Shown here: positions 15,499 to 30,090 of the stretch, piece after piece
How positions within the stretch are numbered: the stretch's first letter is position 1
Layout of the letters: each line of letters begins with the position of its first letter
Source: Aestuariivirga litoralis
GTDB taxonomy: Bacteria; Pseudomonadota; Alphaproteobacteria; Rhizobiales; Aestuariivirgaceae
Reading direction: 5' to 3'
DNA length: 64,000 nt
NCBI RefSeq assembly: GCF_015714715.1
Contig: NZ_WAHS01000001.1
Coordinates: forward strand, 1,178,001-1,242,000
The notes under the pieces: generated by a model
Databases searched by the model: none
What the model was told of the DNA's origin: nothing
What the model saw: the letters and a program-made list of their open reading frames with translations, nothing else
Made by a program: the position numbers and the translations under genes

Positions 15499-16257
15499 GT
15501 GGAGCTTTGGACGGTGGCCCTACTGATTGTGGCAGGCATATTGGGCGGGCTTGCCAATTCAATGGCAGGTGGTGCTTCGCTTTTCACTTTTCCAGCGATG
15601 CTGTTCATCGGCCTGCCCCCGGTCACCGCCAATGCCACCAACAGTTTTGCATTATTGCCCGGCAATTCACTCGGTGCGATTGCGGACCGTGAAAGTTTTC
15701 CACCCCGCACGGCGCTGTTCTGGGCAGCAATCGCGTTGGCGGTTGCAGGTGGGCTATGTGGTGCGATTCTTTTGCTCGCAACATCGGCGCGCGTGTTCGC
15801 CCTGCTGGTCCCTGCCCTGATCGGTGCCGCGACCTTGATCTTCACTTTCTCCAAGCAGATTCGCTTGGGGCTTTCGGCCTTGATGGAGGGTGAGGCACAT
15901 CCGACGCTGCGGCTGGTGCTGCTGTTCATCGCCGCAATCTATAATGGCTATTTCGGCGCTGGCGTGGGCGTCATCTTCCTTGCCACGCTGGCCGCCACTG
16001 GGCATGAAACTTTACGCACAACCAATGCCTTCAAGAATGCGCTGACCTTCATGTCGAATATCGGCGGTGTGGTGATCTATCTATTTTCCGGTGCGATTTC
16101 GTTTCATCACGGGCTGATCATGATGATCGGTGCCGGTATCGGCGGATTGTCGGGCGGCAAGCTTGTCAAAGTGCTGCCGCCGCAACTGGTGCGTGGCATC
16201 ATCACCGCCTGCGGCTGTGTGATGACGCTGGTTTATGTTTATCGTTTCTGGCTGTAG
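15499..16257 (+). CDS. TauE/SafE (TSUP) family membrane transporter
   Basis: Predicted anion exporter or permease of the sulfite exporter TauE/SafE family; substrate unknown (sulfite, sulfoacetate and related organosulfur compounds are transported by relatives). GTG start at 15499 with GGAG 8 nt upstream. At 252 aa it shows seven to eight hydrophobic helices. The two repeats of the family carry GGLANSMAGGASLFTFPAM near the N-terminus and IYNGYFGAGVGVIFLATLAATG in the middle. It stands alone, and its 3' end overlaps the 3' end of psuG by 19 nt. No sulfur-metabolism neighbour helps to name a substrate. Confidence 0.9.
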   Translation: MELWTVALLIVAGILGGLANSMAGGASLFTFPAMLFIGLPPVTANATNSFALLPGNSLGAIADRESFPPRTALFWAAIALAVAGGLCGAILLLATSARVFALLVPALIGAATLIFTFSKQIRLGLSALMEGEAHPTLRLVLLFIAAIYNGYFGAGVGVIFLATLAATGHETLRTTNAFKNALTFMSNIGGVVIYLFSGAISFHHGLIMMIGAGIGGLSGGKLVKVLPPQLVRGIITACGCVMTLVYVYRFWL

Positions 16258-17150
16258 GCCACGGCGATCCGCGCCGCCACAACGGCGTTGTTTTCCACCA
16301 AAGCGATATTAGCCTTCAGCGAACGGCCCTGGGTGGCCTCGGCCAGATGCTTGAGCAGGAAAGGCGTGGTTTCCTTGCCGGAGATGTTCTTGCGCTTGGC
16401 CGCAGTGAGAGCTTTCTCAATCACCGGCGAGATTTCGGATGACGGAATTTCCGCTTCAGCCTGAATGGGGTTGGCGACGACGACACCGCCCTGCAGGCCC
16501 ATCTTCCATTTGGCCTTCATCAACTGGGCCACTTCCTTGGGCGAGTCCATCCGCATCGGAACCTTGAAACCGGATTTGCGCGAATAGAAGGCAGGAAATT
16601 CATCGGTGCCATAGCCCACAACGGGAACGCCCAATGTTTCGAGCTTTTCCAGCGTGAGGCCGAGATCCAGAATCGCTTTGGCGCCCGCCGTCACCACCGC
16701 CACATTGCTGGTGGCAAATTCGGTGAGATCGGCGGAAACGTCGAAAGTTTCTTCAGCACCGCGATGCACACCGCCAATGCCGCCCGTCGCAAACACCGCG
16801 ATGCCCGCCAGTGCGGCAATGCACATGGTCGAGGCGACGGTCGTCGCACCGCTCATGCCCTTGGCCACGACAAAAGGCAGATCACGGGTGGAGACTTTCA
16901 TCACCTCGGTACCGTGCTGCGACAGATGGATCAATTCTTCGAAGTTGAGGCCTGCGCGCAATTCGCCGTCGATAATGGCGATGGTAGCCGGCGTTGCGCC
17001 ATTCATCTTGATCAGCGCTTCGACCTTTTCGGCCATTTCCAGATTCTGCGGAAAGGGCATGCCATGGGCGATGATGGTCGATTCGAGCGCCACGACGGGA
17101 CCTCCGCGTTGCAAAGCACTTTTTACGGGCGCGCTGAATTTGACTTTCAT
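16239..17150 (-). CDS. psuG: Pseudouridine-5'-phosphate glycosidase
   Basis: Cytoplasmic enzyme that cleaves the C-C glycosidic bond of pseudouridine 5'-phosphate to uracil and ribose 5-phosphate, using Mn2+. At 303 aa it has the family length and motifs: GPVVALESTIIAHGMPFPQNLEMA, IAIIDGELRAGL, KVSTRDLPFVVAKGMSGATTVASTM, FATGGIGGVHRGAEETFDVSADLTE, VGYGTDEFPAFY and VVANPIQAEAEI. Its start overlaps the psuK stop by 4 nt (ATGA type), so the kinase and the glycosidase are co-translated and form the full pseudouridine degradation route. Confidence 0.97.
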   Translation of the reverse strand: MKVKFSAPVKSALQRGGPVVALESTIIAHGMPFPQNLEMAEKVEALIKMNGATPATIAIIDGELRAGLNFEELIHLSQHGTEVMKVSTRDLPFVVAKGMSGATTVASTMCIAALAGIAVFATGGIGGVHRGAEETFDVSADLTEFATSNVAVVTAGAKAILDLGLTLEKLETLGVPVVGYGTDEFPAFYSRKSGFKVPMRMDSPKEVAQLMKAKWKMGLQGGVVVANPIQAEAEIPSSEISPVIEKALTAAKRKNISGKETTPFLLKHLAEATQGRSLKANIALVENNAVVAARIAVAYSQKR

Positions 17151-18013
17151 GGTCCCACCAATGTTGAAAACTCTGACGCGATGACCTGCGCGGCCGCGCG
17201 CTGACCGAGTGCTGCGGCTTCAGCCAAAGAAAGGTTCTGCATCAAACCAGCGACCAGACCTGCGGTCGCGGCGTCCCCTGCCCCTGTCACGTCAACAATT
17301 CCCCTTGCCTGACTGGGTACATGATGCATCACGCTGCCGTCAAATGCATAAGCACCTTTGGCTCCATGGTGAATGATCAAGCTTAAGAGCCCGGCGCGCT
17401 GCAGCGCTTGCGCGGCGGCCAGCGGATCGGATTTTCCGGTCAATGCGATCATCTGGTCCAGGTTGGGCGTGGCGAGAAAAATCTCATGGGCTTCAAGAAG
17501 TGCCGTGAGCTTCTGGCTCTTTGAAACCGACACAGGTTCAACGATCATCTTGCCGCCTGCCATGCTGGCAATCGCATCCAATGTATCGAGTCGGAGATTG
17601 CAATCCGCCACAATGTAGCGGCTGGCGGCAAGGCTTTCTGCGTGCTTGGCGATCACTGCAGGTGTGAGCTCTTCGAGGGCGGCCATATCTGAAGCGGCAG
17701 TGACCAATTCACCGGAGGTGTCCAGCACGGCGAGGTAAACGCCGGTCGGGCCTTCCAACTTAATGACGGGAGAGACATCGACGCCCATGACCTTCGTCGC
17801 CGCCAATACGGTCTCGCCGTGGGCATCATTGCCGATCACACTGAGAAGGCGCGTCGGCACGCCGAGTACCGCAAGGTTATGTGCGATGTTGCGGCCCACA
17901 CCGCCGGGCTTCGAACTGATCAGCGCCGGATTCGAAGTCGCGGCAACATGGGGGCCAAGTGTCTTGGCCTTGATATCCAAATTGATGCCCCCGATCACCA
18001 GAACGCCGTCCAT
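17147..18013 (-). CDS. psuK: PfkB-family carbohydrate kinase, probable pseudouridine kinase
   Basis: Ribokinase-fold kinase expected to phosphorylate pseudouridine to pseudouridine 5'-phosphate, the substrate of PsuG. PfkB signature 1 region: SKPGGVGRNIAHNLAVLGVPTRLLSVIGNDAHGE. Signature 2: VDVTGAGDAATAGLVAGL, with the GAGD anion hole and catalytic Asp. N-terminus VLVIGGINLDIKAK is the sugar-binding lid region. Length 288 aa. Function as a pseudouridine kinase is taken from the overlapping psuG gene, since PfkB members are hard to tell apart by sequence alone. The ATG at 18013 lies directly downstream of a strong hairpin. Confidence 0.93.
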   Translation of the reverse strand: MDGVLVIGGINLDIKAKTLGPHVAATSNPALISSKPGGVGRNIAHNLAVLGVPTRLLSVIGNDAHGETVLAATKVMGVDVSPVIKLEGPTGVYLAVLDTSGELVTAASDMAALEELTPAVIAKHAESLAASRYIVADCNLRLDTLDAIASMAGGKMIVEPVSVSKSQKLTALLEAHEIFLATPNLDQMIALTGKSDPLAAAQALQRAGLLSLIIHHGAKGAYAFDGSVMHHVPSQARGIVDVTGAGDAATAGLVAGLMQNLSLAEAAALGQRAAAQVIASEFSTLVGP

Positions 18014-18034: not shown

Positions 18035-18067
18035 ATTCCTTCCGGTGGTATGACTACCGGAAGGAAT
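18035..18067 (-). terminator. Strong hairpin between mttB-like gene and psuK
   Basis: Perfect 12-bp stem ATTCCTTCCGGT / ACCGGAAGGAAT with a 9-nt loop, 24 nt after the stop codon of the upstream minus-strand mttB-like gene and 22 nt before psuK. Read on the minus strand only two T follow the stem; on the plus strand CTTTTT follows. It probably separates the mttB-like transcript from psuGK. Confidence 0.6.
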
Positions 18068-18090: not shown

Positions 18091-19644
18091 TTAGAAGTCG
18101 GTGGGGGCGCCGCCTTCGCGCTTGCGGCGCTCGACGAAATCCTTCAGCGCTTCGTGCACGCCTTCATCCATGGGCGGCTTCACATACTCGTTAAGTGCCT
18201 GTTTATAAACCTGATTGGCCTTCTTGTAGGCATCGGGCGAACCAGCGGCGACCCATTGCTGGTTGTTGCGCCAGTCCGAGATCAGCGGCGAATAGAAGGC
18301 ATTGGTGTAGCGGTTCAATGTGTGCTGCGTGCCAAAGAAGTGGCCACCAGGACCGACATCCTTGATGGCTTCGAAGCCGAGTGCATCTTCATTGATTTCA
18401 AGTGGTTGAAGGAACTCTGTGACCATTTGGATGAGGTCCACGTCGAGCACGAATTTCTCGAAGCTGGCCACAAGCCCGCCTTCCAGCCAGCCGGCGCCAT
18501 GCATGATGAAATTGCCGCCGCCCTGTGTCAGGCCCCACAGTGAGAACACGCTTTCATACGCGGCCTGTGCATCCACCGTGTTGGCGGCGTTGGTGTTGGA
18601 GGTGCGGTACGGCACTTTGTAGCGTCTTGCGAGCTGTCCGCCGACAATTTGCGCCTTCATATATTCCGGCGTGCCGAAAGCTGGCGCACCTGACTTCATG
18701 TCCACATTGGACGTGAAGCCACCATAGATGACCGGGGCACCCTTCTTGACCAATTGGCAGAAAGCGATGCCCGCGAGAGCTTCGGCGTTCTGCAATACGA
18801 GCGCGCCTGCCATCGTCACCGGAGCCATGGCACCCGCCAGCGTGAACGGAGTCACGCAGACAATCTGGCCCGCGCGGCAGAAACGCAACATGCCATTCAG
18901 CATGTTGAAATCAAGCTTCAGCGGCGAGTTGGTGTTGACGATGGTCATCACCGATGGTTCGCGGTGGAACTGCTCATCATCAATGCCACGCATCAGCTTG
19001 GCAATCATCAAAGCATCCTGGGTGCGCTCCTCGCCCAGTACATAAGCGGTGAGCGGCTTGTCCATGATGGTAGCCATGTCATAGAGCGCATCGAGATGGC
19101 GGATCGAGGCGTGGATATCCACCGGCTCCACAGGGTAACCAGCGGAGAAATTGATCGTGTTGAAATACTGGCCGAGCCTCAGGAAGTTCTGATAGTCGGC
19201 GCGGTTGCCGGTGCGGCGGCCGCCTTCCATGTCATGGGCGTTGGGCGGCGAGCCCACCGTGCCATACATGATGTTGTTGCCGCCGATGACACGGCTGTGG
19301 GCCGGGTTGCGGGCGTGAAGCATGAAGGTTTCCGGCGCGTGGGCGACCAATTCCTCGATCATGGCCGGGTCAAAGCGCACGCGCTCCCCATCAATCTGCG
19401 CGCCCGCCGCCTTCAGCAGCGCGTGGGCTTCCGGATGGTTGAAATCCATGCCGATCTCGGAGAGCACTTTCAGCGAGGCGCGGTGGATCGATTCCAGCTC
19501 ATCGGCTGAAATAATCTCGGTGGGCGCAAAGCGGCGCTGCACTTTACGCTCGGGCAATTGCTGCAAGCCGGATCCGCCGCCTGCACCAGGATTGGCGCGA
19601 GCTCCGCCCCGGCGGCGGCGTGGTTCAGTTTCCAAAGTACTCAT
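18091..19644 (-). CDS. MttB-family (trimethylamine methyltransferase-like) corrinoid methyltransferase, copy 1
   Basis: TIM-barrel methyltransferase of the MttB superfamily. The start ATG at 19644 has GGAGG 8-9 nt upstream; the frame extends further but without a ribosome site. The N-terminus is Arg/Gly-rich and low complexity (RRRRGGARANPGAGGG). The core shows IHRASLKVLSEIGMDFNHPEA, FMLHARNPAHSRVIGG, MYGTVGSPPNAHDMEGG, PFTLAGAMAPVTMAGALVLQNAEAL and DVGPGGHFFGTQHTL. The frame contains no in-frame UAG, so it is a non-pyrrolysine member like MtgB (glycine betaine), MtpB (proline betaine) or MtcB (carnitine). Substrate therefore is probably a quaternary amine or betaine, but this is inference. 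It overlaps the LysR gene by 4 nt and faces a divergent paralogue. Length 517 aa. Confidence 0.9.
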   Translation of the reverse strand: MSTLETEPRRRRGGARANPGAGGGSGLQQLPERKVQRRFAPTEIISADELESIHRASLKVLSEIGMDFNHPEAHALLKAAGAQIDGERVRFDPAMIEELVAHAPETFMLHARNPAHSRVIGGNNIMYGTVGSPPNAHDMEGGRRTGNRADYQNFLRLGQYFNTINFSAGYPVEPVDIHASIRHLDALYDMATIMDKPLTAYVLGEERTQDALMIAKLMRGIDDEQFHREPSVMTIVNTNSPLKLDFNMLNGMLRFCRAGQIVCVTPFTLAGAMAPVTMAGALVLQNAEALAGIAFCQLVKKGAPVIYGGFTSNVDMKSGAPAFGTPEYMKAQIVGGQLARRYKVPYRTSNTNAANTVDAQAAYESVFSLWGLTQGGGNFIMHGAGWLEGGLVASFEKFVLDVDLIQMVTEFLQPLEINEDALGFEAIKDVGPGGHFFGTQHTLNRYTNAFYSPLISDWRNNQQWVAAGSPDAYKKANQVYKQALNEYVKPPMDEGVHEALKDFVERRKREGGAPTDF

Positions 19645-20543
19645 TCTTTTATTGCCTCCAAGGCGGGGTCGGCAGCAACCTGCTTCACCAGCCAGTCTTC
19701 GAATCTCTTGATCTTGTTCTTGTTGCGGTTCGCCGTTGAGCAGGCAAAATACCAATTGTGCTTGTGCGGAACGCGTAAGGGAAAGGGCTGCACCAGGCGG
19801 CCCAGTTTGATTTCTTCGGCGGCATAGGGGCCGATGGTCATGGCGGCACCACGGCCTTCAACTGCAGCTTCCTGAGCCAGGATGTAGCTGTCCACGGTGA
19901 GGCGGTTGGCGGGTTTCACGCCCGTGACCCCTGCCCCTTCGAGCCAGATGTGCCAGTCTTCCTCGGCGGTATAGACGTCAATCAATTTGGCATTGGCCAG
20001 GTCTTGCGGCTTGGTCAGCTTCATCTTGGGCGAACAGACCGGCACGAGATAGGATTTGAAGAGCGGGCGGTAATAATGGCCGGGCAGCTTGGTGCGGGCG
20101 AGGATGATGCCGACATCGACATTGCGCTCGTCGAAGTTCCAATCGAAGTATGATGTTGAGAGGCGTACCTTCACATCCGGGAAGCGGCGCTCGAAATCAT
20201 GCAGGCGCGGAATTAGCCATTTCAATGCCACGGTCACATAGACCTGGATGGTCAATTCCTTGTCGGTATTCGCGGGCCTGAGGGCGCGGGTCTGCGCTTC
20301 AATCTGGTCGAAGGCTTCGCGCACGGCGGGGAAATAGCTTTGGCCATGGGTGGTGAGTTCGGCACGGCGCGCATCACGGCGGAACAGCTGCACATCGAGG
20401 CGCTGCTCCAAAAGCTTGATCTGGTGGCTGACGGCAGATCGGGTGATGCCCAGTTCACCGGCCGCCATGCGGAAAGAACCCAAGCGTGCAGCGGCCTCAA
20501 AGGCAGTCAACGCGCGGAGCGGCGGCAGATCACGACGGGCCAA
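19641..20543 (-). CDS. LysR-family regulator, GcvA-like
   Basis: DNA-binding transcription factor. The N-terminal helix-turn-helix (residues 6-65) reads LPPLRALTAFEAAARLGSFRMAAGELGITRSAVSHQIKLLEQRLDVQLFRR, the GcvA/AmpR/TrpI-like form starting LPPLRAL. The rest is a periplasmic-binding-like effector domain. It lies between two mttB-like genes: translationally coupled to copy 1 (4-nt overlap) and divergent from copy 2 with 164 nt between starts. That arrangement is classic for a LysR protein controlling the divergent gene from the shared region 20544-20707, with the effector probably a substrate of the methyltransferases. No operator could be read with confidence. Confidence 0.93.
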   Translation of the reverse strand: MARRDLPPLRALTAFEAAARLGSFRMAAGELGITRSAVSHQIKLLEQRLDVQLFRRDARRAELTTHGQSYFPAVREAFDQIEAQTRALRPANTDKELTIQVYVTVALKWLIPRLHDFERRFPDVKVRLSTSYFDWNFDERNVDVGIILARTKLPGHYYRPLFKSYLVPVCSPKMKLTKPQDLANAKLIDVYTAEEDWHIWLEGAGVTGVKPANRLTVDSYILAQEAAVEGRGAAMTIGPYAAEEIKLGRLVQPFPLRVPHKHNWYFACSTANRNKNKIKRFEDWLVKQVAADPALEAIKE

Positions 20544-20707
20544 GGAAATTCACCAATCACAAGTTCAGGGACGGGATTAGCATAGATTTTGTGCAGCTAA
20601 GCCCGCAAGGGGGTGGTGACATTTTTTAACCACGGATGAAGCATGGCATCTTGGCAAACTGCCCGCCGCTGGCGCAAACTAACACCATTCCAAGGGAGTT
20701 CAAGATC

Positions 20708-22270
20708 ATGAGTCTGGCCGAAAATCAAAGCCGCAGGCGTGGTGGCCGCGAGGCCAGGCAAGCAATGCGTGCAAAGCCAGTTCCCCTCGCTGAAGGTGCA
20801 GTGCGCCCAGGCATGGTGGGTGGGCAATACAAGCCCCTTACCCAACTGGATATGGAACGCATTCATGAAACAGCGCTGAAACTTCTGGAAACAGTTGGTT
20901 TCGGCTCGCCTATCCCGTCGTGTATTGAAGCACTGACCGCCAAGGGCGCCTTCCTCAAGAATGGCAGATTGTGCCTGCCGCGCACTCTGGTGGAAGATAC
21001 GATTGCCAAGGCCGCGCGCCACTTTCCGCTTTATGCCCGTGACCCGAAACATGACCTCGAGCCATGGGGCAACAAGGTTTACTTCGGCACTGCGGGTGCG
21101 GCCGTTCATGTGGTGGATATCGAGAAGCGCGAATACCGCGAATCCTTCCTCGCTGACCTTTACGATGCAGCGCGCATCGTCGACACCTGCGAGCACATCC
21201 ACTTCTTTCAGCGCGTGCTGACGGCGCGCGACATGATCACGGGTCATGACCTCGACATCAACACGCTTTATGGCAGCATTGCAGGCACCACCAAACATGT
21301 GGGCACCTCGATGGTGGATCCCGTGCATGTGGAAGAATGCCTGAAGATCCTGCATCTGGTTGCCGGCGGTGAAGACAAGTGGCGCGAGCGCCCCTTCGTT
21401 TCGCAATCCAATTGTTTTGTGGTTCCGCCGCTGACATTTGCCGAGGACGCCTGCAAGTGCCTCGAAGTCGCCGCACGCGGTGGCATGCCCGTGCTGTTGC
21501 TCTCGGCAGCGCAAGCGGGTGCCACGGCGCCGGCAGCGCTTGCCGGCACTGTGGTTCAGGCGGTCGCTGAATGCCTGATGGGCCTTTGCTACATCAATGC
21601 GGTCGTGCCGGGTGCGAAAGCGATCTGGGGACCCTGGCCCTTCGTTTCTGATTTGCGCACCGGTGCAATGAGCGGCGGCTCGGGTGAACAGGCGCTGATC
21701 ACATCGGCCTGCGCACAGATGGGCCATTTCTATGATCTCACCGTGGGCTCTGCGGCCGGCATGTGCGATTCAAAGATGCCAGACATCCAGGCCGGTTATG
21801 AAAAAGGTGTCACCGCCGGCATCTCGGCGATGACGGGCATCAACCTGATGTATGAATCAGCCGGCATGCATGCTTCGCTGCTCGGCTTCTGCCTTGAGAG
21901 CCTGCTGATCGACAATGACATGCTGGGCTCGATCAACCGCAATGTGCGCGGCATCGAAGTCAATGACGCAACCTTGTCTTTCGAGGTGATCTCGGATGTG
22001 TGCCTGGTTGGGCCGGGACATTATCTGGGCAGCGACCAGACGCTTTCCATGATGCAGAGCGAATATATGTATCCCAAGCTGGGCAACCGCATGAGCCCGA
22101 AAGAATGGAACGAGGCCGGCAAGCCCGACATTCTGGAACGCGCCATCGCCAAGAAAAATGAAATCCTGAGCACGCATTTCCCGGAGACGATCTCCAGGGA
22201 AATTGATGATCTGATCCGCGCCAACCACGACATCAAACTGCCGCGTTCCTACATGCAGCCGAAGGGCTGA
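20708..22270 (+). CDS. MttB-family (trimethylamine methyltransferase-like) corrinoid methyltransferase, copy 2
   Basis: Second MttB-superfamily TIM-barrel methyltransferase (520 aa). ATG at 20708 with AAGGGAG about 10 nt upstream. Its N-terminus is Arg-rich like copy 1 (SRRRGGREARQAMRAK). Core motifs are MERIHETALKLLETVGFGSP, YARDPKHDLEPWGNKVYFGTAGAAVHVVD, LYGSIAGTTKHVGTSMVDP, PPLTFAEDACKCLEVAARGGMPVLLLSAAQAGATAPAALAG and DVCLVGPGHYLGSDQTL. No in-frame UAG, so no pyrrolysine. It differs clearly from copy 1, suggesting a different substrate or a heteromeric role rather than recent duplication. It begins a plus-strand run with the iron-sulfur, homocysteine-methyltransferase-like and GFA genes. 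Confidence 0.9.
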   Translation: MSLAENQSRRRGGREARQAMRAKPVPLAEGAVRPGMVGGQYKPLTQLDMERIHETALKLLETVGFGSPIPSCIEALTAKGAFLKNGRLCLPRTLVEDTIAKAARHFPLYARDPKHDLEPWGNKVYFGTAGAAVHVVDIEKREYRESFLADLYDAARIVDTCEHIHFFQRVLTARDMITGHDLDINTLYGSIAGTTKHVGTSMVDPVHVEECLKILHLVAGGEDKWRERPFVSQSNCFVVPPLTFAEDACKCLEVAARGGMPVLLLSAAQAGATAPAALAGTVVQAVAECLMGLCYINAVVPGAKAIWGPWPFVSDLRTGAMSGGSGEQALITSACAQMGHFYDLTVGSAAGMCDSKMPDIQAGYEKGVTAGISAMTGINLMYESAGMHASLLGFCLESLLIDNDMLGSINRNVRGIEVNDATLSFEVISDVCLVGPGHYLGSDQTLSMMQSEYMYPKLGNRMSPKEWNEAGKPDILERAIAKKNEILSTHFPETISREIDDLIRANHDIKLPRSYMQPKG

Positions 22271-22286
22271 AACTCTAAAAGGCGGT

Positions 22287-22913
22287 ATGGAACATCCGAT
22301 CCTCAACCGCATCCGGCAGGAGAGTTTCGCTCCGCTCGGCTGGTTTGAGCCGAAGGGGATGGATGACACGCGCTTTGTGATCCTGATCGGCAATGCCGGA
22401 CCCGACATGTTCCGCCGCTTCACCCGTGATGGCGGCGGCGTGATGGATGACTGGACGCGGCGTGTGGTGGCGCCGCTGGCGGACGATCTGGGCGCGCGGG
22501 CCGTTTATCCTTTCGAGAAACCTTACCAGCCGTTCCAGCAATGGGCGCGGGCGGCTGGCGTGGGGCATCAATCGCCTCTGGGCCTGAATGTGCATAACAC
22601 TTACGGCCTGTGGCACGCCTTTCGGGCGGCACTTTTATTCCCGGTGGCGTTTGATCTGCCGCGTGCCTCTGCTGGTGCTCACCCTTGCGAGACTTGTGAG
22701 GGCAAGCCCTGCCTGCATGCTTGCCCGGTTTCGGCCTTTGATGGCACGCATTATGATGTGGAGGCCTGCGCCACGCATATTCATGGCGATAACACCTGCA
22801 TGGAAAACGGCTGCAAGGCGCGGCTTGCCTGCCCGGTTGGTGTGCGCTACCGCTATCAGCCTGCGCAGATCCAATTCCACATGAAAGCCTTCAAGGACGC
22901 CCACCCGATATGA
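22287..22913 (+). CDS. Small 4Fe-4S protein resembling the QueG / cobalamin-binding reductase fold
   Basis: A 208-aa protein I cannot name with certainty. The C-terminal part has a ferredoxin-like set: CETCEGKPCLHACP (CxxCxxxxCxxxCP) and a second group with CMENGCKARLACP, eight Cys in all, enough for two clusters. The segment before it (AAGVGHQSPLGLNVHNTYGLWHAFRAALLF) follows the pattern of QueG-like proteins (AGLGxxGKxxLLxxxxYGxWxxxxALL), whose fold binds cobalamin in epoxyqueuosine reductase and is shared with reductive dehalogenases and CblC. The start is 16 nt after mttB copy 2, and its stop overlaps the next gene by 4 nt. In this setting it could reduce or carry a corrinoid for the MttB proteins; this is a hypothesis. 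Confidence 0.7.
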   Translation: MEHPILNRIRQESFAPLGWFEPKGMDDTRFVILIGNAGPDMFRRFTRDGGGVMDDWTRRVVAPLADDLGARAVYPFEKPYQPFQQWARAAGVGHQSPLGLNVHNTYGLWHAFRAALLFPVAFDLPRASAGAHPCETCEGKPCLHACPVSAFDGTHYDVEACATHIHGDNTCMENGCKARLACPVGVRYRYQPAQIQFHMKAFKDAHPI

Positions 22914-23821
22914 GTTACGCCTTCATTGCCGAAAAACTGAAAGCCGGATTACCGATCATCCTGGATGGTGGCACGGGCACTGACATCGAGCGGCGCGGTG
23001 CGCCGATGAGCACGGCCACCTGGTGTGCGGATGTCAACGCCACCCATGGCAATATCGTGCGCGAGGTTCATGCGGATTATGTGAAGGCGGGGGCCGACAT
23101 TATTGCTGCGAATACCTTTGCCACCTCCATGCTGTCCTTTGATGCCTATGGCCGTGCTGACGAAGCCTTGGCGCTGGACGCGGTGGCGGTCGGCTTTGCC
23201 AAAGAGGCTGCTAAGGGTCGCAAGGTTGCGGTGGCGGGATCATTCTCCACCCAGCGTCCAGTGATTGCCGGGACTGACCGCACCAATATGAGCCGAAGCT
23301 GGACGCGCGATGAGGCCAAGGCGCTGTTCAAGCGTAAGGCCGATAATCTCAAGGCACTCGGCGTTGATCTCATCATGATGGAAATGATGCGCGATACGGA
23401 TTACTCGCTCTGGGCCTGCGAGGCGGCGATGGAGATGGGCCTGCCCGTGTGGATCGGCATTTCGGTGGAACGTGTTGAGGGCGAGTTGGTAGGCTTTGGC
23501 CGCACCGATCAGAAGCTCTCCGAAATTGCCCCTGCCCTTGCCGCGCTGAAACCTGCCGCCATGTGCATCATGCACACATCCGCCAATGACACGGATGAGG
23601 CGCTGCAGATTTTGCGCAAGAGCTTCTCAGGTCCTATCGGCGCCTATCCGGAATGCGGCTATTACAAAGCGCCCAACTGGGTGTTTGAAGATGTAATTTC
23701 GCCAGAGGACCTGATTGCCAAGTCGCATGACTGGCAGAAGCTTGGTGCTTCCATTTTTGGCGGCTGCTGCGGGATTGGGCCTACACATATTAAAGCGCTT
23801 GCTACGGAGTTTGCATCTTGA
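22910..23821 (+). CDS. Homocysteine S-methyltransferase family protein with altered first zinc ligand
   Basis: TIM-barrel protein of the BHMT/MmuM/MetH-N family (303 aa). The start region IILDGGTGTDIERRG, VHADYVKAGADIIAANTFATS, and the C-terminal GASIFGGCCGIGPTHI with the paired zinc Cys are clear. The usual third ligand, Cys of an (I)NC motif, aligns with His in AAMCIMHTS, with a Cys three residues earlier, so the zinc site may be built differently. The family moves a methyl group to homocysteine from betaine, S-methylmethionine or methylcorrinoid. Placed after two MttB-like genes and an iron-sulfur protein (4-nt overlap), it is a plausible methyl acceptor step to methionine. The substrate is not shown by sequence. 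Confidence 0.88.
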   Translation: MSYAFIAEKLKAGLPIILDGGTGTDIERRGAPMSTATWCADVNATHGNIVREVHADYVKAGADIIAANTFATSMLSFDAYGRADEALALDAVAVGFAKEAAKGRKVAVAGSFSTQRPVIAGTDRTNMSRSWTRDEAKALFKRKADNLKALGVDLIMMEMMRDTDYSLWACEAAMEMGLPVWIGISVERVEGELVGFGRTDQKLSEIAPALAALKPAAMCIMHTSANDTDEALQILRKSFSGPIGAYPECGYYKAPNWVFEDVISPEDLIAKSHDWQKLGASIFGGCCGIGPTHIKALATEFAS

Positions 23822-24195
23822 AGACTGGTTCCTGCCTGTGTGGCGCAGTGGCTTACGAAGTGCATGGCCCACTGGATGACATTCTGGTTTGCCATTGCAC
23901 CCAATGCCGCAAGCAGACCGGGCATTATTGGGCCTCGACCCATTGCACCGACAAGGATTTGAAGTTCGTCCGGCAGGACGGGTTGAAATGGTTTCATTCC
24001 TCTGACATGGCCAAGCGCGGGTTCTGCAAGGAATGCGGTTCCACCCTGTTCTGGAAGAAGCTTCCGGATGACGGCATCATCTCGATCAGTGCCGGCACGA
24101 TTGACGGCAAGACGGGCCTGCAGATCAGCGCGCATTTGTTCGAGGAAGACAAGGGCGATTACTACGAAATCGCGGCGGATGCACCGCGCCGATAA
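23818..24195 (+). CDS. GFA (glutathione-dependent formaldehyde-activating)/CENP-V family protein
   Basis: Small (125 aa) zinc protein. TTG start at 23818 overlaps the previous stop by 4 nt and has GGAG 8 nt upstream. Zinc ligands are visible: SCLCGAV (CxC), CHCTQC (CxCxxC) and CKECGS (CxxC). The founding member was proposed to help form S-hydroxymethylglutathione from formaldehyde, but most members have no proven function. If the upstream methyltransferases handle methylated amines, formaldehyde detoxification would fit, although this remains inference. It closes the run that begins with mttB copy 2. Confidence 0.9.
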   Translation: MKTGSCLCGAVAYEVHGPLDDILVCHCTQCRKQTGHYWASTHCTDKDLKFVRQDGLKWFHSSDMAKRGFCKECGSTLFWKKLPDDGIISISAGTIDGKTGLQISAHLFEEDKGDYYEIAADAPRR

Positions 24196-25900: not shown

Positions 25901-26382
25901 GGCCCGGCGCAACCTGTGGGACCCTTCGCGGCGCGCCACTATATTTTTGCATTCTGCCGCTTCCGGCTCTTGACGACAGAGTCAAGGCTCGCACCCCCTC
26001 CTCCACAAACAAACTTTGGCTGTGATTTTTAAGCGGAGAGTTCTTGAGCTTAAAGCCAGAATCGGATGAGTATGGACTTCACCGCAGGCTCGTATGGGCC
26101 GTTAACACAATATGTAGTGGTTAACCTTTCGTTTACACACTAAGTATTGACGTTTGAAGCGGCCTGCATTACCTTAGATTTCCAAGGTGTGCAGCGGGTT
26201 TTGCAGCGGTTTTTCCGCGAGAAAGCCCCGTTAGTGAAGACGCCACAGATACTTAAGGCGTCAACGCGTTGGGGGCGAGAACCTTCGCCAAACAGAAGAG
26301 TTGTCAAACACGGGGCTAGGCTACCCGTGCGTATTTTTGCGCGCGGGTGGAATTGGGCACATTTTATATCGGGACAAGGCAA
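25901..26382. other. Long upstream region of nrdJ
   Basis: About 480 nt without a credible gene. It holds a small inverted repeat CTTGAC/GTCAAG at 25969-25986, the NrdR box pair at 26105-26152, and then about 230 nt of leader before the nrdJ ATG. I looked for a cobalamin riboswitch B12 box and did not find one. Confidence 0.6.
26105..26152 (+). promoter_or_regulatory. Tandem NrdR boxes upstream of nrdJ
   Basis: Box 1 at 26105-26120 reads ACACAATATGTAGTGG, 14 of 16 matches to the NrdR consensus (acaCwAtATaTwGtgt). Box 2 at 26137-26152 reads ACACTAAGTATTGACG, weaker (about 11 of 16) but with the core C, A, T, T and G kept. Start-to-start spacing is 32 bp, the three-helical-turn spacing typical of NrdR-controlled ribonucleotide reductase promoters. 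This predicts repression of nrdJ by NrdR when dATP is high. A TTAA-N7-TTTA element lies between the boxes. Confidence 0.75.
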
Positions 26383-29300
26383 ATGCGGATTGAACGTTTC
26401 TACACCAAGGCAGGACAGGACGCTTACACAGGGCTGGATTTCCGCTCTGCGGTAAGTGAGATCAAGAACCCTGATGGCTCAATAGTATTTCGATTGGATG
26501 ACATCGAAGTGCCATCGGCCTGGAGCCAGGTGGCGACCGACATTCTTGCACAGAAATATTTCCGCAAAGCCGGCGTGCCCGCCGCTTTGAAGAAGGTTGA
26601 AGAAACCTCGATCCCGTCGTGGCTGTGGCGTTCGGTGGCTGATGATGAAGCCATGAAGGACCTGCCCGCGAAAGAGCGCATCATTGGCGAACGTTCCGCC
26701 AAGCAGGTGTTCAACCGTCTGGCCGGCACCTGGACCTATTGGGGGGTGAAGGGCAAATACTTCAACACCGAAGAAGACGCGCGCGCCTTCTATGATGAAA
26801 TGTGTTTCATGCTGGCCACCCAGCGCTGCGCGCCGAACAGCCCGCAATGGTTCAATACCGGCTTGCATTGGGCTTATGGCATCGACGGCCCGAGCCAGGG
26901 CCATCATTATGTTGATTTCGAAACCGGCAAGCTCACCAAGTCGAAGACGGCTTATGAGCATCCGCAGCCGCATGCCTGCTTCATCCAGTCCGTCTCAGAC
27001 GATCTGGTGAATGAAGGCGGCATCATGGACCTGTGGGTGCGTGAAGCTCGTCTGTTCAAATACGGCTCCGGCACTGGTTCCAACTTCTCTTTCCTTCGCG
27101 GCGAAGGCGAAAAGCTTTCGGGCGGTGGCCGTTCGTCTGGCCTGATGAGCTTCCTCAAGATTGGTGACCGTGCTGCGGGCGCCATCAAGTCGGGCGGCAC
27201 CACGCGCCGTGCGGCCAAGATGGTCGTCGTTGATGTCGATCATCCGGATATCGAAAACTATGTCGAGTGGAAGGTGAAGGAAGAGCAGAAGGTTGCTGCC
27301 CTCGTCACCGGTTCCAAGACGGTGAAGAAGCACCTCACCGCCATCATGAAGGCTTGCGTGAATTGCGAAGGCCCGGGCGGTGATTGCTACGAAATCGAAA
27401 AGAACCCGGCCCTCAAGCGTTCCGTCAAGGAAGCGCGTCGCGCCCAGGTTTCCGACAATTACATCAAGCGCGTCATCCAGTTCGCCAAGCAGGGCTATAC
27501 TGAAATCGAGTTCGACACTTATGACTCGGATTGGGATGGCGAGGCTTACCGCACGGTGTCGGGCCAGAATTCCAACAATTCAGTCCGCGTGACCGATGAC
27601 TTCCTGCGCGCTGTTGAACAAGACGGCGATTGGAACCTCACCGGCCGCATCACCGGCAAGGTGACCAAGACGTTGAAAGCCCGCGACCTGTGGGACAAGA
27701 TCGGCCATGCGGCCTGGGCCTCGGCTGATCCGGGCATCCAGTTCCACACCACGATCAATGACTGGCACACTTGCATTGGTTCAGGCGAGATCCGTGCATC
27801 AAACCCCTGCTCCGAATATATGTTCCTGGACGATACGGCCTGCAACCTCGCCTCGCTGAACCTCCTGCAGTTCCGCGATGCGGATACTGGCAAGTTCAAC
27901 ATTGCCTCGTTCGAACATGCCACCCGCCTGTGGACGATGGTTTTGGAAGTCTCGGTTCTCATGGCGCAGTTCCCGTCCAAGGAAATTGCCCGCCTGTCTT
28001 ATGAATACCGCACGCTCGGTCTGGGCTTTGCCAATATTGGCGGCCTGTTGATGAAGGCTGGTATTCCTTATGACAGCCATGAAGGCCGCGCCATTTGCGC
28101 TGCCATCTCGGCGATCATGACCGGCATTTCCTATGCCACCTCGGCTGAAATGGCCAAGGAACATGGCCCCTTTGCTGGCTTTGCCAAGAACCGCGAACAC
28201 ATGCTGCGCGTGATGCGCAACCATCGCCGCGCGGCTTATGGTGCTGCGGTTGGCTATGAAGGCCTGAATGTTGCTCCAGTGCCGCTGGACGACAATGACC
28301 TGACCGACAAGTCGCTGGCTGCTGCCGCCCGCAAGGCTTGGGACAAAGCCGTAGAACTGGGCGAAGCCCATGGCTACCGCAATGCGCAAGCCACCGTGGT
28401 TGCTCCGACCGGCACGATCGGCCTCGTCATGGATTGCGACACGACTGGCATCGAGCCTGATTTTGCTCTGGTGAAGTTCAAGAAGCTGGCCGGTGGCGGC
28501 TATTTCAAGATCATCAACCAGGCCGTGCCGGATGCTTTGCGCACGCTGGGCTACAATGCCGAACAGATCGAAGAGATCATCAATTACGCTGTGGGCCATG
28601 GCTCGCTGGCTGACTCGCCCGCACTCAACCATGCCCAACTGAAGTCCAAGGGCTTTGGCGATGCGGAAATTGCCAAGGTTGAAGCTGGTTTGGCGTCGGC
28701 CTTCGACATCAAGTTCGTGTTCAACAAGTTCGTGCTGGGCGAAGAGTTCTGCAAGAACGTCTTGAAGCTGTCGGATGATCAGCTCAATGATTTCAGCTTT
28801 GACCTGCTGGGCTCGCTGGGCTTCTCCAAGGCTGATGTTGACCGCGCAAATATCCATGTCTGCGGTGCGATGACACTGGAAGGCGCACCTGGCCTGAAGG
28901 AAGAACACCTGGCGGTTTTCGATTGCGCCAATCCTTGCGGACGTATCGGCAAGCGTTACCTGTCGGTGGAAAGCCACATCCGCATGATGGCTGCCGCGCA
29001 GCCCTTCATCTCGGGTGCGATTTCCAAGACCATCAACATGCCCAATGATGCTACAGTAGAAGAGTGCTCCGAGGCGTATATGCTGTCGTGGAAGCTGGCC
29101 ATCAAGGCCAATGCTCTCTACCGCGATGGTTCCAAGCTCTCGCAGCCTTTGTCTTCGCAGCTCATCGCCGATAATGACGATGATGCGGATGATGCGGTGG
29201 ACACGCTGGTCGCCAAGACCATCCCGAACCGGGTGGAAACTGTTGTCGAGCGCATCGTGGAACGCATCATTGAGCGTGAGCATGCGCGTGACAAACTTCC

Positions 29301-30090
29301 GGGCCGCCGCAAGGGCTATACCCAGAAGGCGATCGTGGGCGGGCACAAGGTTTACCTGCGCACCGGCGAATATGAAGACGGCAAGCTGGGCGAAATCTTC
29401 ATCGACATGCACAAGGAGGGCGCTGCCCTTCGCGCCATGATGAACAATTTCGCCATCGCGATCTCCGTCGGCCTGCAATATGGCGTTCCGCTGGAAGAGT
29501 TCGTCGATGCCTTCACCTTCACCAAATTTGAGCCTGCGGGCATGGTGCAGGGCAATGACTCGATCAAGAACGCAACCTCGATCCTCGATTATGTGTTCCG
29601 CGAACTGGCTGTGTCCTATCTGGGCCGCCATGACCTGGCGCATGTCGAACCTTCGGAATTGCGCTTTGACTCGCTGGGCCGTGGTGAGAATCCTGAAGAA
29701 GCCCCGAAGCCAACCGCTGCTCCGGCCCAACGCTTTGTTTCGACCGGCTTTGTGCGCCGGCAGAACATGGCCAATGTGGTGGTGATGCCGCAAGGTGCGA
29801 TGGGCCAGGGTGGCTCACCCGCCCATGCCTTGCAGATGCGCGCAGCTGAGCATGTTTCAGCAGCACCCGTCATGGTGCATGGCGCATTGGCGGAAGCCCC
29901 TGCTCCGGTGATCACTTCGGCACTTGCTTACGAGCCTGCCAAGCCGGTGAAAGCCATGGATGCGCGGATGGAAGCACGCCTCAAGGGCTATGAAGGCGAA
30001 AGCTGCTCGGAATGCGGTAATTTCACCATGGTGCGCAACGGCACCTGCCTGAAATGCGACACCTGCGGTTCGACGAGCGGTTGCTCGTAA
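26383..30090 (+). CDS. nrdJ: Adenosylcobalamin-dependent (class II) ribonucleoside-diphosphate reductase
   Basis: Reduces ribonucleotides to deoxyribonucleotides using a thiyl radical generated from coenzyme B12; oxygen-independent. ATG 26383 (AAGG 5 nt upstream) gives [20 protein letters not shown], the usual N-terminus; a start 36 nt upstream is less likely. The length of 1235 aa is typical of the large alphaproteobacterial form. Visible motifs are [23 protein letters not shown] and the radical-site NPCSE (N474, C476, E478). A TSCPD domain is at about 985-1090 ([33 protein letters not shown]...). A C-terminal Cys-rich tail ([16 protein letters not shown]) should form a zinc site and redox thiols for reactivation. 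Regulation by NrdR is suggested by the upstream boxes. Confidence 0.98.

Follow-up and report, generated by a model that had tools for sequence, protein, structure and literature searches.

A conserved gene block in Aestuariivirga litoralis combining MttB-type methyltransferases with an iron-sulfur protein of cobalamin-binding-type fold, and its association with an aerobic Mtg corrinoid system

Demethylation by Mtg-type systems requires cobalamin in the reactive Co(I) state inside air-living cells. MtgBCD-type demethylation in aerobic bacteria is reported to be a major ocean route of glycine betaine turnover, and in Ruegeria pomeroyi genetics and proteomics show that MtgC and MtgD are common to betaine demethylation and methionine synthesis and suggest that several MtgB paralogues act on other methylated compounds (PMC12478193). 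A corrinoid gene close by is usual in many such systems but not in all, the R. pomeroyi arrangement being scattered. This MtgBCDE system and the split methionine synthase of Phaeobacter inhibens (PMC5764234) are the closest described counterparts of a block of six genes that we analyzed in a 64,000-nucleotide stretch of the Aestuariivirga litoralis genome (assembly GCF_015714715.1, contig NZ_WAHS01000001.1, positions 1,178,001 to 1,242,000; hereafter the window). Its gene content and genomic associations mark the block as a satellite of the known aerobic Mtg system, the gene for the corrinoid protein lying elsewhere in the genome, and a small iron-sulfur protein, referred to as FeS below, is its new element. 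We consider it probable that the block acts as a satellite module in which FeS services the cobalamin of the corrinoid protein MtgC. The genes of the block are as follows (positions in the window):

18091..19644, minus strand: MttB1, methyltransferase of the MttB/MtgB superfamily (PF06253, 652 bits)
19641..20543, minus strand: LysR-family regulator, GcvA-like (HTH_1 and LysR_substrate)
20636..22270, plus strand: MttB2, divergent methyltransferase of the MttB superfamily (PF06253, 348 bits)
22287..22913, plus strand: FeS, small protein with a predicted cobalamin-binding-type fold (MMACHC/QueG/RdhA) and eight conserved Cys (predicted structure and alignment)
22910..23821, plus strand: HMT, homocysteine S-methyltransferase-like barrel protein with a zinc site that seems variant (PF02574, 159 bits)
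23818..24195, plus strand: GFA-family small protein (PF04828, 79 bits, cut-off 24.3)

All six genes were in place as described in a preceding sequence-only reading, five of them in the Pfam families it had named, while a Pfam scan of FeS at E 0.001 returned no family. MttB1 and MttB2 are divergently oriented, and MttB2, FeS, HMT and GFA form a single run with a gap of 16 nt between MttB2 and FeS and overlaps of 4 nt each between FeS and HMT and between HMT and GFA. The listed open reading frame (ORF) of MttB1 extends to 19755; its start is most likely 19644, where an ATG overlaps the LysR stop codon in an ATGA. For MttB2, a start near 20708 is probable, as this fits both the Met found at residue 25 and the length of homologues. 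The LysR regulator scored slightly below the cut-off of the GcvA model PRK11139 (284.5 versus 288 bits).

The whole set of the aerobic MtgBCDE system and the split methionine synthase was present in the Aestuariivirga genome. It comprises PF06253 MtgB paralogues (five genes, two of these in the block), one MtgC (C1:1271833-1272528, 232 residues, PF02310 97 bits, PF02607 57 bits; the sole MtgC-like match in the genome), a DUF1638 gene (95 bits) adjoining MtgC, a pterin-binding MtgD (107 bits), a homocysteine-binding MtgE (208 bits) and a single RACo/RamA-like activator (RACo_C_ter, 311 bits). Two PF00809 genes, one of them MtgD-like, and two PF02574 genes were found, the latter in frames 340 and 342 residues long, neither of MetH length. 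Beyond the common set, the block holds the divergent MttB2, FeS with its predicted B12 fold, a second HMT whose zinc site seems altered, and GFA. No corrinoid-protein family was among the Pfam matches of the block genes, and neither of the two genomic matches to PF02607 falls within the window, the second one (C2:512095, 23.1 bits versus a cut-off of 23) in a 585-residue ORF resembling a membrane transporter by eye. The lack of a corrinoid protein emphasized by the sequence-only reading is thus a property of the window and not of the genome, and the activator that it could not recognize was recovered by the genome search as the RACo/RamA-like protein together with DUF1638. That reading had also reasoned that a corrinoid protein and an activator elsewhere, regulated together with these genes, would make the block an ordinary MttB system; both exist elsewhere, with MtgC near the block in many relatives, and what had been put forward as a candidate for an undescribed system belongs by gene content to the known one, FeS being the new element.

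The same results bear on the proposal that the methyl group reaches homocysteine without any corrinoid protein while GFA clears formaldehyde. The local lack of corrinoid families agrees with it; however, the presence of MtgC, activators and MtgD/E in the genome, the proximity of MtgC and DUF1638 to the block in many relatives and the seemingly altered zinc ligand of HMT leave it practically no chance. The formaldehyde role of GFA had been derived from the family name, and it is much weakened by a GFA score of 19 versus a cut-off of 234.55 for the S-(hydroxymethyl)glutathione synthase model TIGR02820. Methyl transfer onto a corrinoid yields no formaldehyde. HMT passes the Pfam gathering score for PF02574 and has the barrel fold. 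Homocysteine is an uncertain acceptor, since HMT seems to deviate from MtgE/Bmt in one of the zinc ligands. Among the three Cys of MtgE/Bmt that we take to bind zinc, the third aligns with the invariant H222 of HMT in two alignments and is shifted in a further one, while C286 and C287 of HMT were kept in 44 of 45 rows. In an alignment with rat BHMT read by eye, the Trp of the presumed betaine-binding residues W44, Y77 and Y160 is kept, and neither Tyr is evidently conserved.

One line of evidence for a cobalamin-related function of FeS is its predicted fold. The AlphaFold model of the 208-residue protein has a pLDDT of 91.9, and all of the best 50 of 147 Foldseek matches, as well as all of the best 30 of 50 matches listed by VIA-align, were QueG, MMACHC/CblC or RdhA proteins, including the methylcobalamin-binding MMACHC structure 3sc0. 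The structural alignment spans FeS residues 1-205, about the first 120 of which correspond to an MMACHC-like domain. Invariant in 62 aligned rows were eight Cys (C134, C137, C142, C146, C161, C171, C176 and C182), which would leave room for two [4Fe-4S] clusters, and the non-Cys positions G35, G38, P79, P82, G99, G107, W109, H110 and R113. FeS differs from MMACHC (CblC) by these Fe-S-type Cys and by a sub-threshold score for PF16690, and from QueG by its length and by the lack of a TIGR00276 match at E 0.001; identity with QueG is very unlikely, a separate QueG (436 bits) being encoded elsewhere in the genome. Judging from the model, FeS looks like an undescribed member of the cobalamin-handling fold and would represent a bacterial counterpart, in fold, of MMACHC, which processes B12 in humans. 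No paper on a small Fe-S protein of MMACHC/QueG fold associated with MttB was found in a literature search that did not cover most subscription journals or any preprints, and the terms 'ferredoxin', 'iron-sulfur' and '4Fe' occur nowhere in the main text of PMC12478193.

An ordinary ferredoxin that feeds RamA or MtgC without binding cobalamin, its fold match reflecting common ancestry only, would also account for the eight conserved Cys, which suit two [4Fe-4S] clusters. The Sinorhizobium meliloti homologue is annotated 'ferredoxin', and in one locus (L136) FeS immediately precedes a RamA-like gene. In a plain ferredoxin, however, the MMACHC-like first 120 or so residues with their invariant non-Cys positions would be superfluous, and a Methylibium relative closes a cobalamin-synthesis run; we regard a mere ferredoxin as unlikely.

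Conservation of the block was followed in the best 80 loci kept from 150 FeS relatives in named genomes, which include Aestuariivirga and Taklimakanibacter (Aestuariivirgaceae, Hyphomicrobiales). MttB2 was present in 41 of the 80 (tblastn on the loci), and these 41, biased to near relatives because they were drawn from the best 80 of 150 and in part located on short contigs, also contained LysR (38), HMT (39), GFA (37) and MttB1 (35) as well as the Mtg genes DUF1638 (26), MtgC (21) and MtgE (13). Of 69 family genomes, 50 contained FeS, 49 of them clearly and one (G031) at E 4.6e-4 only, and the gene order around it was mostly unchanged in 20 stretches from family genomes. Exceptions were L060, with MtgC where MttB2 would be, L061, with other genes between MttB2 and FeS, L067, with FeS alone, and several stretches without a called GFA. 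Judged by gene content and order, the block is a functional unit, because both are conserved beyond chance, which sustains the unit of MttB type proposed from the sequence. In L070, L072, L074, L075 and L120, two genes resembling M16-type peptidases by eye sit between HMT and a gene of the MFS type; among these stretches, GFA was called in L120 only.

The gene directly 5' of FeS in the 80 loci was MttB2 in 37, an MttB of the 1554k type in ten (47 together) and MtgC in one, and the gene directly 3' was HMT in 44 and RamA in one. This consecutive order of MttB, FeS and HMT, combined with a fold found in methylcobalamin binders such as MMACHC 3sc0, would also suit a self-contained MttB2-FeS-HMT unit in which FeS carries the methyl group on its own cobalamin, the Fe-S clusters re-reduce it and HMT passes the methyl group to a thiol independently of MtgC. 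Such a carrier would amount to a corrinoid methyltransferase without the usual B12-binding domain of MetH/MtgC. The sequence-only reading had allowed for a carrier encoded elsewhere, a role that MtgC would fill, or for another carrier, a part for which FeS with its cobalamin-binding-type fold is a quite improbable candidate. MtgC was found in 43 of the 49 family genomes with FeS, and the remaining six, in which no close MtgC was found, are draft assemblies 66-96% complete (the most complete being G006, 96% in about 350 contigs, and G019, 92% in about 470 contigs); no family genome keeping MttB2-FeS-HMT was shown to lack MtgC. In other lineages (L115, L117, L118, L129, L137 and L138), FeS follows MttB without HMT and with MtgC nearby. 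The locus L081 of Taklimakanibacter lacteus contains FeS-HMT-GFA and no MttB or corrinoid gene, yet in G054, a genome whose coordinates are identical, MtgC stands 14 kb from FeS.

Among the 43 family genomes that contain FeS as well as MtgC, the two genes were at most 10 kb apart in 24, shared a contig at a greater distance in six and were split between contigs in 13; two MtgC rows in this count are fragments located where a contig ends. In L077 and similar relatives, GFA is followed by a stretch of DUF1638, MtgC and a gene labelled cysteine-desulfurase-like by eye, a stretch that stands at a locus separate from the block in the Aestuariivirga genome.

Direct adjacency of FeS to MttB was observed in Aestuariivirgaceae, Tepidamorphaceae, Sinorhizobium and Paracoccus. 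Eight records of a plasmid collection matched FeS, four of which were inspected; on the S. meliloti and Paracoccus plasmids, MtgC is divergent from MttB-FeS, with DUF1638, MtgD and RamA nearby, and a stretch from Shinella carried no annotated genes. The mtg region of S. meliloti (CP090106.1, L150) consists of RamA, MtgD, DUF1638 and MtgC divergent from MttB, which is followed by the FeS homologue, with bmt and cobalamin genes farther along; it differs from the Aestuariivirga block in having neither HMT nor GFA after FeS, and its MttB is closest to the Aestuariivirga 1554 kb paralogue (67%, versus 24% for MttB2). FeS may be an overlooked component of Mtg-type systems, and its repeated position beside MttB, including in S. 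meliloti and Paracoccus, would make it testable in tractable strains. In L172, FeS sits beside MtgC. In L162 (6178-9375), the FeS homologue is followed by an MtgC-like corrinoid gene, a gene resembling UroD-type methyltransferases by eye and DUF1638, possibly a further corrinoid system using FeS. On the Methylibium plasmid, FeS is the last gene of the cobalamin-synthesis run. As annotated, this relative (L152:7932-8552) is short and has no second Cys motif, and its tblastn match is split in two pieces, so that the gene may be disrupted or may have a diverged end.

The association of FeS with MttB extends to a sample of 240 genomes of the class, in which MtgC, called at an identity of 72% or more, was present in 44 and MttB in 51 genomes, MttB accompanying all 44 MtgC genomes and occurring without such MtgC in seven. 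FeS was found in 50 genomes of this sample, together with MttB in 37 (odds ratio 36, p 4e-21) and with MtgC in 31 (odds ratio 22, p 5e-16). Several observations weigh against a service of FeS to MtgC. These p values are from Fisher tests that ignore shared ancestry, and absence counts may include misses because at most 13 FeS or six MttB candidates were scored per genome in the first scan. FeS was not found in 13 of the 44 MtgC genomes, and 13 of the 50 FeS genomes held neither MtgC nor MttB. Where the class sample has FeS together with MtgC (31 genomes), the two genes were at most 10 kb apart in two genomes, shared a contig at a greater distance in four and were split between contigs in 25, and 70,923 bases separate them in the Aestuariivirga genome. 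When the FeS locus was examined in 17 of the 19 class-sample FeS genomes without MtgC, FeS was called in 11, and five of these showed housekeeping or C1-like neighbours by eye (ffh in L159 and L168, alaS in L165, secA in L154 and ftfL in L170). At the sequence level the B12 fold is weakly supported, with a profile search giving E 0.0076 for QueG and E 0.067 for MMACHC-like proteins and with 13.4 bits versus a cut-off of 27 for Pfam MMACHC PF16690, a family matched at E 1 or better by 23 of 25 FeS homologues (best 0.0042). Finally, none of the five genes reported for the P. inhibens split methionine synthase is FeS-like (PMC5764234).

Part of these observations would fit a general cobalamin-handling or other B12-fold enzyme outside the Mtg system that travels with MttB in some lineages: the 13 FeS genomes lacking both MtgC and MttB, three loci (L159, L165 and L168) near ffh- or alaS-like genes, and the rarity of FeS beside MtgC in the class sample. 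On a tree of 65 FeS sequences, inferred by a quick method with 26 of 62 inner branches weak, the label 'linked to MttB or corrinoid genes' required 11 changes versus 18.1 in shuffles, none of 500 being as low; linked and unlinked sequences were interleaved, with at least three changes forced by the starred branches. The odds ratio for co-occurrence with MttB and the direct adjacency to MttB in four lineages speak against an enzyme unrelated to Mtg, to which we assign a low likelihood. FeS represents a wider B12-fold family whose ties to MttB recur without being exclusive, because it occurs in genomes without MttB or MtgC, has other neighbours as well and forms an interleaved tree.

From fold, neighbours and co-occurrence, we infer that FeS handles cobalamin for MtgC. 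In the satellite module that we favor, MttB1 and MttB2, MtgB-like with different active-site residues, would demethylate small methylated amines, and the methyl group would pass to the cobalamin of the single MtgC, 71 kb away. The RamA-like protein and DUF1638 would hold this cobalamin reduced, while FeS would most likely reduce, dealkylate or load cobalamin for MtgC. The methyl group could leave via MtgD to tetrahydrofolate, via MtgE to homocysteine or via the HMT of the block to a thiol bound by zinc.

MttB1 shares 26-40% identity with the other paralogues of its genome and with S. meliloti MttB. For MttB2, identity to the four paralogues is 25-26%, and its match to pyrrolysine MttB (188 bits) almost equals that to glycine betaine methyltransferase (201 bits). 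At the position aligned with pyrrolysine, all 40 MttB2 rows have Met (M376), whereas MttB1 has Asn, S. meliloti MttB and two paralogues have Leu, and the fifth paralogue has His; because these residues differ, the alignment suggests that MttB1, MttB2 and the paralogues differ in substrate. A Cys at this position of MttB2 was considered and rejected, the aligned residue being Met and the neighbouring Cys being shared with the 1554k paralogue and S. meliloti MttB. After MttB1, on the same strand, come two conserved neighbours:

17147..18013, minus strand: PfkB-family kinase (PF00294, 144 bits)
16239..17150, minus strand: PsuG-like protein of the Indigoidine_A family (PF04227, 434 bits)

PsuG was present in 25 and PfkB in 23 of the 41 MttB2 loci. 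The PsuG-like family is presumably that of pseudouridine-phosphate glycosidases, and these two neighbours yielded no usable hint on the MttB substrate. A hairpin of 15 pairs lies at 18035-18067 between MttB1 and PfkB. Downstream of the block, a large gene (26347-30090) resembles by eye a B12-dependent class II ribonucleotide reductase and is a possible further user of cobalamin.

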